DNA of 56,478 nucleotides, from NCBI RefSeq assembly GCF_015207265.1, contig NZ_JADEXE010000010.1:1-56478 (forward strand). The letters run 5' to 3'. The translations under genes were made by a program, and so were the position numbers. Shown in pieces: positions 42,163-53,741 of the stretch; the stretch's first letter is position 1, and every line of letters begins with the position of its first letter. Under the pieces are notes generated by a model that was not told where the DNA came from, searched no databases, and was given only the letters and a program-made list of their open reading frames with translations. The DNA is from Nodosilinea sp. LEGE 07298. Lineage in GTDB: Bacteria > Cyanobacteriota > Cyanobacteriia > Phormidesmidales > Phormidesmidaceae.

Positions 42163-43161
42163 CTAGCCGTGGCGGGTTTGGTGCCAGGCCCAGGCGTGGG
42201 TCAGAATGGTGTCAATGTCGGCGTACTGCGGGTTCCAGCCTAGGACGCTGCGGGCGCGATCGCTGCCTCCCACCAGCGCAGGTGGATCGCCGGGGCGGCG
42301 TTCAACTTCCACCACCGGGATAGTCTTACCTGTTACCCGTACCGCCGCATCAATCACCTCTCGCACCGAGAAGCCGCTGCCGTTGCCCAGATTAAAGACA
42401 TTGCTCTCGCCACCTTTTAGCAGGTACTCCAAGCCCAGAATATGGGCATCGGCGAGGTCGCACACGTGGATGTAGTCGCGGACGCAGGTGCCGTCGGGGG
42501 TAGGGTAGTCGGTGCCAAAAACGCTGATCGACTCTCGCTGCCCCAGAGCTGTTTGCAGCACCAGGGGAATCAGGTGGGTTTCGGGATTGTGGTCTTCGCC
42601 CAGTAGCCCGTTGGGATGGGCACCCGCCGCATTGAAATAGCGAAAGCGTACCGATCGCAAATCGTAGGCTTTGTCGTAGTCGGTCAAAATGCGCTCAACC
42701 ATTAGCTTGGTGGCACCGTAGGGGTTGATCGGGTTTTGGGGATGGGACTCTGTAATCGGCATTTCCTGGGGCACGCCGTAGGTAGCGCAGGTCGAAGAAA
42801 AGACGACGTTTTTGACCCCGGCTTCCACCATGACATCGAGCAACGACAGTGTGCCTACAACGTTGTTTTCGTAGTATTTGGCAGGGTTGCTGACCGACTC
42901 GCCCACATAGGCGTAGGCCGAAAAATGCATGACGGCGCTGACGTCGTAGCGGCTAAAGATTGACTTGAGCAGCTCTTTGTCTAGGGTACTGCCCTCAATT
43001 AGTTCAGTTTTTAGCACATTCTCGACTAGGTCACGATGGCCATAGACCAGGTTGTCTAGAATCAAAACTCGATAGCCTTCCTGCTGAAGGGCCATCACGG
43101 CGTGGCTGCCGATGTAACCAGCCCCCCCTGTCACCAGGATGGTTTTTGCCTCAGTTGTCAT
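42163..43161 (-). CDS. galE: UDP-glucose 4-epimerase
   Basis: This extended SDR of 332 residues interconverts UDP-glucose and UDP-galactose, feeding polysaccharide and galactolipid synthesis. NAD-binding GGAGYIGSH (12-20), catalytic SSTCATYG with Thr124 and Tyr148-x3-Lys152 (NPYGATK) are present. FRYFNAAGAHPNG and CVRDYIHVCDLADAH are GalE-specific. It converges on the atp terminator. No other sugar nucleotide genes adjoin it. Confidence 0.95.
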   Translation of the reverse strand: MTTEAKTILVTGGAGYIGSHAVMALQQEGYRVLILDNLVYGHRDLVENVLKTELIEGSTLDKELLKSIFSRYDVSAVMHFSAYAYVGESVSNPAKYYENNVVGTLSLLDVMVEAGVKNVVFSSTCATYGVPQEMPITESHPQNPINPYGATKLMVERILTDYDKAYDLRSVRFRYFNAAGAHPNGLLGEDHNPETHLIPLVLQTALGQRESISVFGTDYPTPDGTCVRDYIHVCDLADAHILGLEYLLKGGESNVFNLGNGSGFSVREVIDAAVRVTGKTIPVVEVERRPGDPPALVGGSDRARSVLGWNPQYADIDTILTHAWAWHQTRHG

Positions 43162-43370: not shown

Positions 43371-43411
43371 CTTAAATAAGCTTTAACCAAAGCTTACCGC
43401 CCACTTAGTCC
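43371..43411 (+). promoter_or_regulatory. Four 11-bp-spaced CTTA repeats resembling a Pho box
   Basis: CTTAAATA (43371), TTTAACCA (43382), CTTACCGC (43393) and CTTAGTCC (43404) start exactly 11 bp apart, each 8-bp unit separated by 3 bp. Cyanobacterial Pho boxes bound by SphR/PhoB are tandem CTTAACCT-like octamers with 3-bp spacers. Individual matches are only 5 or 6 of 8. The array precedes a predicted phosphoesterase gene. The segment also contains the inverted repeat TAAGCTTT-AACC-AAAGCTTA (43377-43396), an alternative reading. Confidence 0.45.
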
Positions 43412-43492
43412 TCCCATGAAGCTTTGCCGTACGCAATGGCCGAAGATAGCTCCGTAGCAATGACTACAAGATGTAACCCCCAAGTGTTATCT

Positions 43493-46400
43493 ATGGCTGA
43501 CTTCAAGCTCCAACTCTTTCATGCGGCCGATCAAGAGGGTAATATTTCTGCCCTGGATGATGCTCCTCGATTTTCAGCTGTATTAAACGCTCTAAAAAAC
43601 CAGGATATTGATGGTGACGGCGTCGCTGGATTTGCTAATACTCTAATTTTGTCTTCTGGAGATGCCTACATTCCCGGCGTATTTTTCAGCGCCAGTGGTG
43701 AGGCGTTCGGCGGAGCTGGCAGAGGCGATATTTTAATTCAAAACGCCCTGGGCTTTCAGGCGATCGCCTTTGGCAACCACGAGTTTGACCAGGGTACCGG
43801 CCTAGTGGCTAACCTGATCAGCGCTGGAGAAGATGATCCTGAAACTGCGATCGACGAGTCTTTCCCGGGCACTGCGTTCCCCTACCTGAGCAGCAACCTC
43901 GACTTTAGCACCGATGCTAACCTGGTCGACCTGGTGGTGCCCGATGCCCAGACACCTCTGCCCAACAGCATTGCGGCTTCTACGGTGATTGAGATCAATG
44001 GCGAAAGAATTGGTGTAGTGGGGGCTACGACCCCGACCATCAGCAACGTTAATGTGCGCATCTCTAGCCCTGGCGACGTGACGGTGCTGCCCCAGCCGTT
44101 TGACAGCAGCCCTACCCCAGCACAGCTCGATGCGCTAGCGGCTGAAATTCAGGCTGATGTGGACGCGCTGCTGGCAGCTAACCCCGACATTAATAAAGTC
44201 GTGCTGCTGGCCCACATGCAGCAGATTGCCATTGAGCAAGAGCTAGCTCAGCGCCTGTCAAATGTAGACATCATTGTGGCTGGCGGCTCGAACACTCGTC
44301 TGCTTGATGAAACCGATCGCCTCCGCGCTGGCGACATCGACCAGGGGGTCTATCCCATCGTTCAAACCGGGGCCGATGGCAATCCCGTAGCGGTGGTCAA
44401 CACCGACGGCAACTATAAGTATGTGGGCCGCCTGGTGATTGACTTTGATGAGAATGGGATACTGCTGCCAGAAAGCTATAATCCCGCAATCAGCGGTGCC
44501 TACGCTACCGATGAGCAGGGCGTTGTCGAGGTTGGTGGTGTAGGATTGGCCGATCCCAAAATTGTGGCCATTACTGATGCCCTGCGCGAGGTAATTATTG
44601 CCACCGAAAGCAATGTCTTTGGCGTTAGCGAAGTCTTTTTGGAGGGGCGTCGCGGTGAGGTTCGTACTGAAGAAACTAACCTGGGCAACCTAACTGCCGA
44701 CGCCAATCTAGCCGTTGCGCGCGAGGTTGACCCCACTACGGTCATTTCGCTCAAGAATGGCGGTGGCATTCGCAACCCGATTGGGCAAGTTGTGGTGCCA
44801 GCTGGCGGCACAGGAGAGGCTGAACTGTTACCCAATGAAGAAATTCCTGGAGTGAAGCCTGCGGGCGGTATTTCCCAGACCGACATTGAGAACACGCTGC
44901 AATTTAACAACGAGCTATCGCTTGTCACCGTCACCGCTGCAGAATTGGTAGCGCTGATTGAGCACGGCGTTTCGGCCAGCAGCCTGGATGACAGTGCCAC
45001 CCCTGGTCAGTTTCCTCAAATTGGTGGATTTTCCTTTAGTTTTGATGTCACTGCTGAACCGGGCAACCGTGTTCAGTCGCTGGCGATCGAATCTGAAGAC
45101 GGCACCGATCTTGATGTCGTGGTACAAAATGGTGAGATTGTCGGTGACCCCAGCCGCACGTTCCGTATGGTAACGCTGAGCTTCTTGGCTGGCGGTGGCG
45201 ATGGCTATCCTTTTCCTACGAGTGAAGCAGCCAACCGAGTAGACCTAGTGGATGAAGATGCGCCTACTACGGGAAATGCGACCTTTGCCGCCGACTTTTC
45301 TGAGCAGGATGCGCTGGCAGAGTATCTGTTCGACAACTTCGGGGCAGCAACCCCCTTTGCCGCTGCTGAGACCGATCGCAGTCTAGACACCCGAGTCCAG
45401 AATCTGGCCTTCCGCAGCGATACCGTTATCGACGCCAGCACCGGTGAACCCATCCTACCTCCCGTCGATGGGCCTGATTTCTCCGGTGGTTTCGACGGAC
45501 CCTTTGCCCAAATCGGCAGACTAGACCTCGCCGATGGGGCCGAGATCAACGCTTACGATCCCGGATCTAAGAAGCTCTTCGTGGTTTCTGGCGAACCCAC
45601 GCTGCAAGTCGTTGATCTCAGCGACCCCACTGCTCCGATCGCACTGCCGCTGATCGACTTGAGCGCCTACGGCGGGGGCATTAACAGCGTTGCGGTCAAC
45701 AACGGCTTATTGGCTGTTGCAGTGGCAGCTGACTCAGCCACCGATAACGGCGTGGTCGTCTTCCTCAACGCTGAGGGCACTGTGCTGAACAGCCTCACCG
45801 TGGGGGCACTGCCCGATATGGTGACCTTCACCCCCGATGGCACCAAAGTTCTGGTGGCTAACGAAGGTGAGCCCAATGCTGACTACACCGTCGATCCTGA
45901 AGGTTCAGTTAGCATTATTGACCTCAGCAATGGCGTAGACAATGCAACGGTTGCAACTGCCGGGTTTACACAGTTCAACGATCGCGCCGATGAGCTAAAG
46001 GCGGCAGGTGTTAAGCTGTTTGGCCTAAACGCTACGGTGGCCCAAGACGTTGAGCCGGAGTACATCGCGGTTTCGCCCGATGGCACCACCGCCTGGGCCA
46101 CGCTGCAAGAGAGCAATGCCTTTGCCCTGATTGATATCGCTAGCGCCACCGTTACAGATATCTTGCCCCTGGGCTTTAAGGATTACAGCACTGGCCCTAA
46201 GCTTGATGCCAGCAACGAGGATGGCGGCATTAACCTCCAAAACTGGCCCGTATTTGGGGTTTATCAGCCTGATGCGATCGCAAGCTACGCCGTTAATGGC
46301 ATGACCTACTACGTCACCGCCAACGAAGGCGATGCCCGCATCCGCCCCGACGGTGACATCGAAGACGAAGCGGGCAACGTCATTGTTGAAGAGGGTGTCT

Positions 46401-47482
46401 TTTTTAACGAAGAAGCCCGCATCAAAGATGTTGTGCTTGACCCTACAGCCTTTCCCAATGCAGCTTTCTTGCAGCAGGACGAAAATATAGGCCGCCTCAA
46501 CATTACTACGGCTCTGGGAGATACCGATGGTGATGGTGATTTTGATGAGCTCTACAGCTTTGGCGGTCGCTCCTTCAGCATTTGGGATCAAACCGGCAAT
46601 CTCGTCTTTGATAGCGGCGATGACATGGCCAATATCACCGCGCAGCTGACCCCAGAACTCTTCAACGCTAACGACGGTGACCCTGCGGAGTTCGACCAGC
46701 GTTCTGACGACAAGGGAGCCGAACCCGAAGCGCTGACTGTTGCTAAGGTTGGTGATACAACCTATGCTTTTGTTGGTCTTGAGCGGGCTGGTGGAGGCGT
46801 CTTGATCTACGACATCAGCAATCCCTTTGCCCCCACGTTTGTGCAGTACATTCGTGACGATCGCGATGTTGCCCCTGAAGGTTTATCCTTTATTGCAGCG
46901 GCAGACAGCCCCAACGGCAACCCGCTGTTAGTAGTGGCCAACGAGGCCAGCAGCACCATTACTGTGTTTGAGGCCAGCGCTCTGATCGGGGAACCTGAGC
47001 CCGAAGTACCTGGCGTATTCCTCGACCTGCGCGACATTACCGGTGATGTGGACACCACCTTTACGGTTAACCGGGAAGCTGCCTTCGATAACTTCGTCGG
47101 CTTCTACCAGGTGACCGACACCAATGGAGGCATCGACCTAGACGGTGATGGAACTGCCGACGTTGCTCCCGGTCAGGCGGGTTACACCAAGGCGGCCCTG
47201 GCTGCTCGCGCTGAGTCTGTGGCGTTAACCACAGCTAACTTAACCGAGTCTGTCTTTGAGACAACCGTGGCTGGGGGCAGCCTCTACGCTCCCTTCTTGA
47301 TCGTCAACGGCACTCCAGAGGACTTTAGTGCTAGTCAGGTGTACTTTGCCTTTGGGGCCGCCAACGCCGATGGCATTGAGCATGTGCGCGTTGCCGATGG
47401 GGCGATTGGGTTTGAAGACCTGTTTGGCGGTGGCGACAACGACTTCAATGACATAGTTGTCGCGTTCTCGTCGCTGGCCTAG
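43493..47482 (+). CDS. Very large 5'-nucleotidase-like phosphoesterase / choice-of-anchor I / DUF4114 protein
   Basis: This acidic protein of about 1329 residues has three parts. The N-terminal third is a UshA-like metallophosphoesterase: metal motifs LQLFHAADQEG, LILSSGDAY, AFGNHEFDQG and VVLLAHMQQ, then a C-terminal nucleotidase domain (LKNGGGIRNP, SFLAGGGDGYPF). The middle is a propeller-like choice-of-anchor-I region (VNNGLLAVAVAAD, VTFTPDGTKVLVANEGEPN, DTDGDGDFDELYSFGGRSFSIW). The end is a DUF4114-type domain (FEDLFGGGDNDFNDIVVAF). No signal peptide is visible, so type I-like secretion is inferred. Starts at 43424, 43436, 43460 and 43493 are all open; 43493 fits the fold best. Confidence 0.85.
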   Translation: MADFKLQLFHAADQEGNISALDDAPRFSAVLNALKNQDIDGDGVAGFANTLILSSGDAYIPGVFFSASGEAFGGAGRGDILIQNALGFQAIAFGNHEFDQGTGLVANLISAGEDDPETAIDESFPGTAFPYLSSNLDFSTDANLVDLVVPDAQTPLPNSIAASTVIEINGERIGVVGATTPTISNVNVRISSPGDVTVLPQPFDSSPTPAQLDALAAEIQADVDALLAANPDINKVVLLAHMQQIAIEQELAQRLSNVDIIVAGGSNTRLLDETDRLRAGDIDQGVYPIVQTGADGNPVAVVNTDGNYKYVGRLVIDFDENGILLPESYNPAISGAYATDEQGVVEVGGVGLADPKIVAITDALREVIIATESNVFGVSEVFLEGRRGEVRTEETNLGNLTADANLAVAREVDPTTVISLKNGGGIRNPIGQVVVPAGGTGEAELLPNEEIPGVKPAGGISQTDIENTLQFNNELSLVTVTAAELVALIEHGVSASSLDDSATPGQFPQIGGFSFSFDVTAEPGNRVQSLAIESEDGTDLDVVVQNGEIVGDPSRTFRMVTLSFLAGGGDGYPFPTSEAANRVDLVDEDAPTTGNATFAADFSEQDALAEYLFDNFGAATPFAAAETDRSLDTRVQNLAFRSDTVIDASTGEPILPPVDGPDFSGGFDGPFAQIGRLDLADGAEINAYDPGSKKLFVVSGEPTLQVVDLSDPTAPIALPLIDLSAYGGGINSVAVNNGLLAVAVAADSATDNGVVVFLNAEGTVLNSLTVGALPDMVTFTPDGTKVLVANEGEPNADYTVDPEGSVSIIDLSNGVDNATVATAGFTQFNDRADELKAAGVKLFGLNATVAQDVEPEYIAVSPDGTTAWATLQESNAFALIDIASATVTDILPLGFKDYSTGPKLDASNEDGGINLQNWPVFGVYQPDAIASYAVNGMTYYVTANEGDARIRPDGDIEDEAGNVIVEEGVFFNEEARIKDVVLDPTAFPNAAFLQQDENIGRLNITTALGDTDGDGDFDELYSFGGRSFSIWDQTGNLVFDSGDDMANITAQLTPELFNANDGDPAEFDQRSDDKGAEPEALTVAKVGDTTYAFVGLERAGGGVLIYDISNPFAPTFVQYIRDDRDVAPEGLSFIAAADSPNGNPLLVVANEASSTITVFEASALIGEPEPEVPGVFLDLRDITGDVDTTFTVNREAAFDNFVGFYQVTDTNGGIDLDGDGTADVAPGQAGYTKAALAARAESVALTTANLTESVFETTVAGGSLYAPFLIVNGTPEDFSASQVYFAFGAANADGIEHVRVADGAIGFEDLFGGGDNDFNDIVVAFSSLA

Positions 47483-52098: not shown

Positions 52099-52223
52099 GG
52101 AGGCTCTCTCTTAACCTAGTTTCAGCATACCCAGTTGGTTTAGCAAATGCTGATGCCAAGGTGGATAGGGTGTATTACCCGGCTAAAATCACCTACTTTA
52201 AACTCGGTTTTTTCTCAATACTG

Positions 52224-52991: not shown

Positions 52992-53741
52992 GTGGGCTCT
53001 GTATCTGTACAGATTATTGAGGGCAACCCCCATTTGCGATCGCTCCTAGGCTGGCATCTTCAGCAAGCTGGCTATAGAGTCTTCCAGTCGTCAGATATAG
53101 TTCGCACCCGCGATGTTTTTCAGAACCGTCAGCCCGACTTAGTAATTTTGGACTCGCAGCTGCCCGATGGCGATGGGGTAGAACTGTGCAGGTGGCTGCA
53201 CAGTCAGGGGCAACCGCTGATTATGATTCTCTCAGCCTGTAATACCGAAACCGACATTGTGACTGGGCTGCGGGCCGGAGCCGACGATTACCTAACTAAG
53301 CCCTTTGGGATGCAAGAATTTTTGGCCCGAGTTGAGGCGCTGACCCGGCGAGTGCGGTTGATGAGTGCCCCGGCATCGCTGACCTACGGCGATCTCAATA
53401 TTGATCTGGTACAGCGGCGGGTCAACTTTCGCGGCGACTATATCGATCTAACACCCCAGGAATTTAGCCTGCTATATGTACTTACCCAGGCGGCGGGTGC
53501 CCCCCTTAGCCGCACCGATCTCTTGCGCCGCGCCTGGCCCGATGCGATCGACAATCCCAGAACGGTCGATACCCACATTCTTTCCCTGCGTAAAAAAATT
53601 GAGGTTGACCCGAGACAACCCAATATTATTCAAACAGTGCGCAATGTGGGCTATCGCTTTAATGTTGAACGCGCCTCTGCTGAATCTAATGGCCACAGCC
53701 CACGCGTTAGCCCGAGCTTGGCCTCCTCCTCATTGATCTAG
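52992..53741 (+). CDS. OmpR-family response regulator transcription factor
   Basis: This protein of 249 residues has an N-terminal receiver and a C-terminal winged helix. Phosphoacceptor Asp54 (LVILDSQLPDGDG) and Lys103 (YLTKPF) are intact. The strand-1 acidic pair is altered: IIEGNPH has Glu but Gly in place of the second acid, so metal binding may be weakened. The DNA-binding domain is clear (LTPQEFSLLYVL; NPRTVDTHILSLRKKIE; TVRNVGYRF). GTG 52992 is the only reasonable start. No histidine kinase gene is adjacent, so it is an orphan regulator with unknown targets. Confidence 0.9.
   Translation: MGSVSVQIIEGNPHLRSLLGWHLQQAGYRVFQSSDIVRTRDVFQNRQPDLVILDSQLPDGDGVELCRWLHSQGQPLIMILSACNTETDIVTGLRAGADDYLTKPFGMQEFLARVEALTRRVRLMSAPASLTYGDLNIDLVQRRVNFRGDYIDLTPQEFSLLYVLTQAAGAPLSRTDLLRRAWPDAIDNPRTVDTHILSLRKKIEVDPRQPNIIQTVRNVGYRFNVERASAESNGHSPRVSPSLASSSLI

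Follow-up and report, generated by a model that had tools for sequence, protein, structure and literature searches.

SphR, the cyanobacterial PhoB, is known from Pho boxes in front of phoA, sphX and pstS of Synechocystis PCC 6803, and these boxes, like those predicted in other cyanobacteria, consist of two to four tandem 8-bp units (PMC1906773). The published consensus octamer of SphR is YTTAAYYW (PMC13226834). In Synechococcus elongatus PCC 7942, for which adjacent sphR and sphS genes were reported, the phoA gene (Synpcc7942_1392) carries a predicted SphR box (PMC1906773) and, according to the account of Ray et al. 1991 given in PMC12260270, encodes an atypical alkaline phosphatase. The urtA promoter of Synechocystis, which is repressed by SphR and regulated by NtcA, was the only case of combined SphR and NtcA control that we found in the literature (PMC13226834).

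The array described here lies in a window of 56,478 nucleotides, by which we mean the whole stretch of DNA that was analysed. It shares with the known SphR boxes the 3-bp linkers, the YTTAAYYW/CTTAACCT consensus and the location upstream of a phosphate-acquisition gene, but differs from them by its four units of conserved, unit-specific sequence, two of which (units 3 and 4) are degenerate, and by a GTAN8TAC palindrome located downstream. We consider it highly probable that the array is a Pho box made of four SphR-binding units and belongs to the promoter of a gene for a phoA-type phosphatase. An SphR/PhoB box ahead of a phosphate gene had been proposed in a preliminary description of this DNA, and the proposal gained support from conservation before the orthologues, from the arrays of phoX and pstS genes and from the presence of SphR and SphS homologues.

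Sequence and matrix scores of the array

The + strand at positions 43371-43411 reads CTTAAATA agc TTTAACCA aag CTTACCGC cca CTTAGTCC. The four octamers follow each other in exact 11-bp steps with 3-bp linkers (Table 1), and the four (C/T)TTA octamers of strict 11-bp period were located exactly where the preliminary description had placed them; its count of five to six matches per box to CTTAACCT was also reproduced (5, 6, 5 and 5 of 8 positions for units 1 to 4, respectively). The array thus consists of four tandem octamers, where a Pho box needs at least two to three with 3-bp linkers, and its conservation is periodic. In the alignment of orthologues, the TTAA of unit 1, the CTTA of unit 3 and the TTAG of unit 4 were invariant and unit 2 was almost invariant, while unit 1 had the variant GTTAAGCA in many orthologues. 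A possible degenerate fifth unit is CATTAAGT in many orthologues, or CATGAAGT.

Table 1. Coordinates of the features of the phoA-type promoter and gene in the window
Feature	Coordinates	Strand	Score, evidence or comment
Pho-box unit 1, CTTAAATA	43371..43378	+	8.9 bits, Su 2007 matrix; YTTAAYYW 7/8
Pho-box unit 2, TTTAACCA	43382..43389	+	9.7 bits; YTTAAYYW 8/8
Pho-box unit 3, CTTACCGC	43393..43400	+	0.7 bits, weak alone; YTTAAYYW 5/8
Pho-box unit 4, CTTAGTCC	43404..43411	+	4.3 bits; YTTAAYYW 6/8
Possible degenerate unit 5, CATGAAGC	43415..43422	+	conserved, in phase; -1.8 bits in the window
Candidate -10, CAATGG	43434..43439	+	weak, predicted; lies 11 bp past unit 5
Alternative candidate -10, GATAGC	43445..43450	+	alignment; weak, inferred only
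NtcA-like palindrome, GTAGCAATGACTAC (GTAN8TAC)	43454..43467		fits NtcA consensus GTAN8TAC
1329-aa PhoA-type atypical alkaline phosphatase / 5'-nucleotidase-family protein (predicted)	43493..47482	+	Pfam, NCBIfam, alignment

Given the weakness of single units, we scored the array with a position matrix made of 81 octamers from Table 1 of Su et al. 2007 (PMC1906773), none of which came from the host genus; the PCC 7942 rows, being near-duplicates of those of PCC 6301, were excluded. The matrix was used instead of a covariance model built from the published triple boxes, which was dropped because their alignment introduced gaps. Matrix scoring, which the preliminary description had proposed as a check, placed the array at the top of the window: it ranked first among about 113,000 positions on both strands when two, three, four or five units were considered. 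Units 1 and 2 were strong matches while units 3 and 4 were weak, and the array as a whole fitted the SphR matrix, with a four-unit score of 23.6 bits versus 13.0 for the best unrelated site of the window. When the 331-bp intergenic region was shuffled 5000 times with preservation of dinucleotides, the four-unit score was reached by a fraction of 0.0002 of the shuffles with both strands counted and by none on the + strand. Among 370 background upstream regions, none reached the four-unit score and 0.3% reached the three-unit score. Over 399 kb of the host genome, one other place scored as high as the array, and no such place was found within 400 kb of a relative. A whole-genome search for CTTAACCT-N3-CTTAACCT with three mismatches was rejected as too unspecific, with 49 matches versus 38 for the reversed-pattern control.

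The downstream gene

The start codon of the gene was taken to be the ATG at 43493 and not the in-frame TTG upstream at 43424, as judged by conservation. Pfam and NCBIfam models identified a degenerate 5'-nucleotidase N-terminal half, a 5_nucleotid_C domain, a choice-of-anchor I domain and a DUF4114 domain. The gene was matched in 46 of the 57 genomes searched, and its relatives occur in many cyanobacteria. Over residues 1-1162 its product shares 61% identity with that of locus L025, which has the same domains. L025 lies in the small cyanobacterial genome G044, whose main contig measures 2.7 Mb and in which sphR and sphS are neighbours. The array upstream of L025, TTTAACCAttcCATAACTTgctCTGAATCT, shares 23 of 30 positions with the box published for S. 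elongatus phoA, TTTAACTAtttCATAATCTattCTCAATCT, and this close likeness, together with the adjacent sphR-sphS pair, suggests that L025 is phoA.

The window gene has full-length homology to this family, including its 5'-nucleotidase and choice-of-anchor I parts, and is most plausibly an orthologue of the gene for the atypical alkaline phosphatase PhoA, the phoA of S. elongatus. The likeness to the latter is seen through L025, its presumed orthologue in a sister genome, with which the window protein is colinear over the 5_nucleotid_C and choice-of-anchor I domains. The two differ at the C-terminal end (DUF4114 in the window protein versus DUF4214 in L025) and in the position of the Pho array, which is at -122 of the window gene versus -214 to -231 in the comparison of S. 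elongatus phoA and L025; the upstream regions are not alignable. The earlier designation of the gene by its 5'-nucleotidase-like domain gives way to that of a PhoA-type orthologue.

The Pfam metallophosphatase model did not match the product even at an E value of 1. The last metallophosphatase motif, which is usually the metal-binding GHxH, aligned with GGSN in the N-terminal half; this is a predicted phosphatase without GHxH, yet its family is retained under a Pho box. The product was also predicted at first to be extracellular, a term which we do not adopt because no classical signal peptide is apparent in the sequence. RTX repeats are present in one relative (L034), where they would suit type I secretion. 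The activity and the location of the enzyme, as well as the exact -10 of its promoter, are what we infer.

SphR and SphS homologues and other Pho arrays of the genus

The genome encodes both SphR and SphS, as homologues 65% (L182) and 44% (L271) identical to SphR and SphS of G044, respectively. The downstream neighbour of L271 is a pseudouridine-synthase-like gene, as in G044. A 672-aa kinase (C61) had been considered as SphS but was set aside when comparison with G044 led to the orthologue L271; it presumably resembles NblS. The adjacent pair of G044 was itself assigned as SphR-SphS from the gene order of S. elongatus (PMC1906773), so that these names are presumptive.

Other phosphate genes of the genus have comparable arrays. 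The phoX genes have four units roughly 80-110 bp upstream of the start codon, for example CTTCACTA-N3-CTTAAATA-N3-GCTAAACA-N3-GTTAAACC, and the octamer CTTAAATA is common to unit 1 of the window array and to the phoX arrays of the host genome and of the genus. The four-unit score of the host-genome phoX array, 19.3, was lower than that of the window array. The pstS-type genes also have such arrays, and in the one that precedes a host-genome pstS gene (L050) the third unit is CTTACCGC, identical to unit 3 of the window array.

These arrays bear on the possibility that another response regulator of the OmpR/PhoB family with 11-bp direct-repeat sites, and not SphR, reads the window array. The genome encodes dozens of PhoB/OmpR-type regulators which could in principle recognize 11-bp TTA repeats, and some of the units deviate from YTTAAYYW. 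However, the SphR matrix puts the array first in the window, an identical octamer occurs in the phoX arrays, the pstS arrays are comparable, and the published phoA of the family has a predicted SphR box (PMC1906773). We regard recognition by another regulator as improbable and retain SphR as the protein that would bind the array.

Several further sites and genes were observed. The window contains a gene for a PhoB/OmpR-type response regulator at 52992-53741 (C25:53004-53663) and a two-unit Pho-like site at 52197 with a score of 16.1. Three Pho-like arrays, at L004 1501-1519, L006 1371-1389 and L233 8926 (-), were among the strongest outside the known phosphate genes and adjoin small multi-pass membrane proteins (L004 1780-2514 +, L006 520-1332 - and L233 8089-8808 -, respectively). 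These proteins are alike by eye and may represent an unrecognised Pho-regulon gene; the orientation of the array fits the gene in L233 and is divergent in L004 and L006.

Conservation of the array before in-genus orthologues

Alignments and model searches showed that the array is located at -121 to -123 from the start codon in 16/16 in-genus promoters of the window type, which are related by descent, with the whole 120 bp upstream conserved, and do not count as independent cases. The mean majority-base frequency was 0.51 over the 48 bp preceding the array and 0.85 within the array; the rise is sharp and sets in with its first base, from which conservation runs towards phoA. Columns conserved in 15 or all 16 of the sequences showed an 11-bp period (permutation p 0.0007). 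The array is placed upstream of a phosphate-acquisition gene and conserved before its orthologues. In none of the genomes searched did a model made from the orthologous arrays (R1) reveal another gene preceded by the full array, so the exact array is gene-specific.

Control of the divergent UDP-glucose 4-epimerase-like gene galE (42163-43161, - strand) was also considered, since galE lies divergently upstream at all in-genus loci of the window type. The distance from the array to galE varied from 181 to 346 bp across loci, however, while that to phoA was constant, which assigns the array to phoA; conservation starts at the array and extends towards phoA, and the units point in the same direction. 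We find control of galE very unlikely and rejected it on spacing.

Pho arrays in relatives with replaced promoters

Because the in-genus promoters share their descent and a conserved leader, independent cases were sought in relatives. Two in-genus loci with galE still upstream (L012 and L021) and three loci of other genomes (L024, L031 and L032) have unrelated promoter sequence with the array CTTAARTC-N3-CTTTACCG-N3-CTTTACTT, located at about -330 in L012, L021, L024 and L031 and at about -220 in L032. More distant members (L025, L034 and L037) have yet other Pho arrays. Altogether, in 25 of 26 upstream regions of the family the score was above the level reached by 5% of the background, and the median empirical p was 0.004. 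Conservation upstream of orthologues, the lack of which would have refuted the proposal according to the preliminary description, was found both here and in each of the 16 in-genus promoters.

That TTA-containing octamers fell into such a row by chance, in an intergenic region richer in AT, is hardly credible: each unit alone is a weak match and the row was selected by eye out of a long sequence, but the shuffles and background regions, the fixed position with its 11-bp-periodic conservation and the independent arrays of relatives with other promoters oppose this reading, which conservation effectively refutes.

Traces of promoter turnover were also observed. In L012 and L021, the phoA promoter has been swapped at the same locus for another type with its own Pho array, and L021 has an apparent decayed relic of the ancestral array at -654. 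Genome G012, in which no copy of the phosphatase gene was detected, still carries a degraded fragment of the array promoter, ATTAAGCAATTTTTAATTAAAGC, at L199 1501-1523, as if the gene had been lost.

Core promoter and proposed activation by SphR

No good sigma-70 core promoter was found on the + strand of the array promoter, and neither of the two candidate -10 elements of Table 1 matched sigma-70. The first, CAATGG, follows a position rule derived from E. coli Pho promoters (PMC1906773) and is mostly TAATGG among the orthologues in the alignment; the alternative, GATAGC, is replaced in orthologues by GATAAC, TATGAC and similar sequences.

SphR binding, activation and the start site are predicted by analogy with the known system (PMC13226834; PMC1906773). 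In the mechanism considered most likely, the SphS kinase would phosphorylate SphR under low phosphate, and SphR dimers would occupy the 11-bp direct repeats side by side, all on the same face of the DNA. Bound SphR would then bring RNA polymerase to the weak core promoter immediately downstream, and the large phosphatase that is made would free phosphate from organic esters.

An NtcA-like palindrome downstream of the array

The palindrome GTAGCAATGACTAC has the GTAN8TAC box of NtcA-regulated promoters and is located at -38 to -40 in 16/16 in-genus promoters, where its invariance alone is weak evidence since the segment around it is conserved too. It was absent from the remaining family members and from nine phoX upstream regions. 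The background of GTAN8TAC was 81 per 799 kb, or about one per 10 kb. Canonical activator sites have the box some 22 bp upstream of a TAN3T -10, a geometry that was not found, as there is no TAN3T at that distance, and canonical class II activation is impossible because the -10 would fall on the start codon. The placement resembles that of a repressor site, the only geometry that remains (compare PMC3898017). A conserved hairpin formed by the dyad GTAGC...GCTAC was not favoured, as folding gave no support and the stability of the leader RNA was not significant (z -0.8, -0.1 and -1.0).

We suggest only tentatively, and think it rather doubtful, that in this genus the phoA promoter integrates phosphorus and nitrogen signals, with SphR activating from upstream and NtcA, at the GTAN8TAC site close to the transcription start, repressing under nitrogen starvation, the reverse of urtA. 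Both promoters combine Pho boxes and an NtcA site or NtcA-like site, but the Pho boxes of urtA are near the -10 and repressing, while the window has the Pho array upstream, in an activator-like position, and the NtcA-like site downstream, in a repressor-like position. If real, this would be a logic reverse to that of urtA.

Significance

The array is a sound but expected member of the known Pho regulon. It adds a well-supported Pho-regulon promoter from a genus of filamentous cyanobacteria akin to Nodosilinea and Leptolyngbya. An SphR array is retained before phoA-type genes across cyanobacteria even where the promoter sequence has been replaced, a clear case in which function is kept while sequence turns over. 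The NtcA-like site, if real, would make this a simple two-input promoter with which to study how cyanobacteria weigh a shortage of nitrogen against one of phosphorus.
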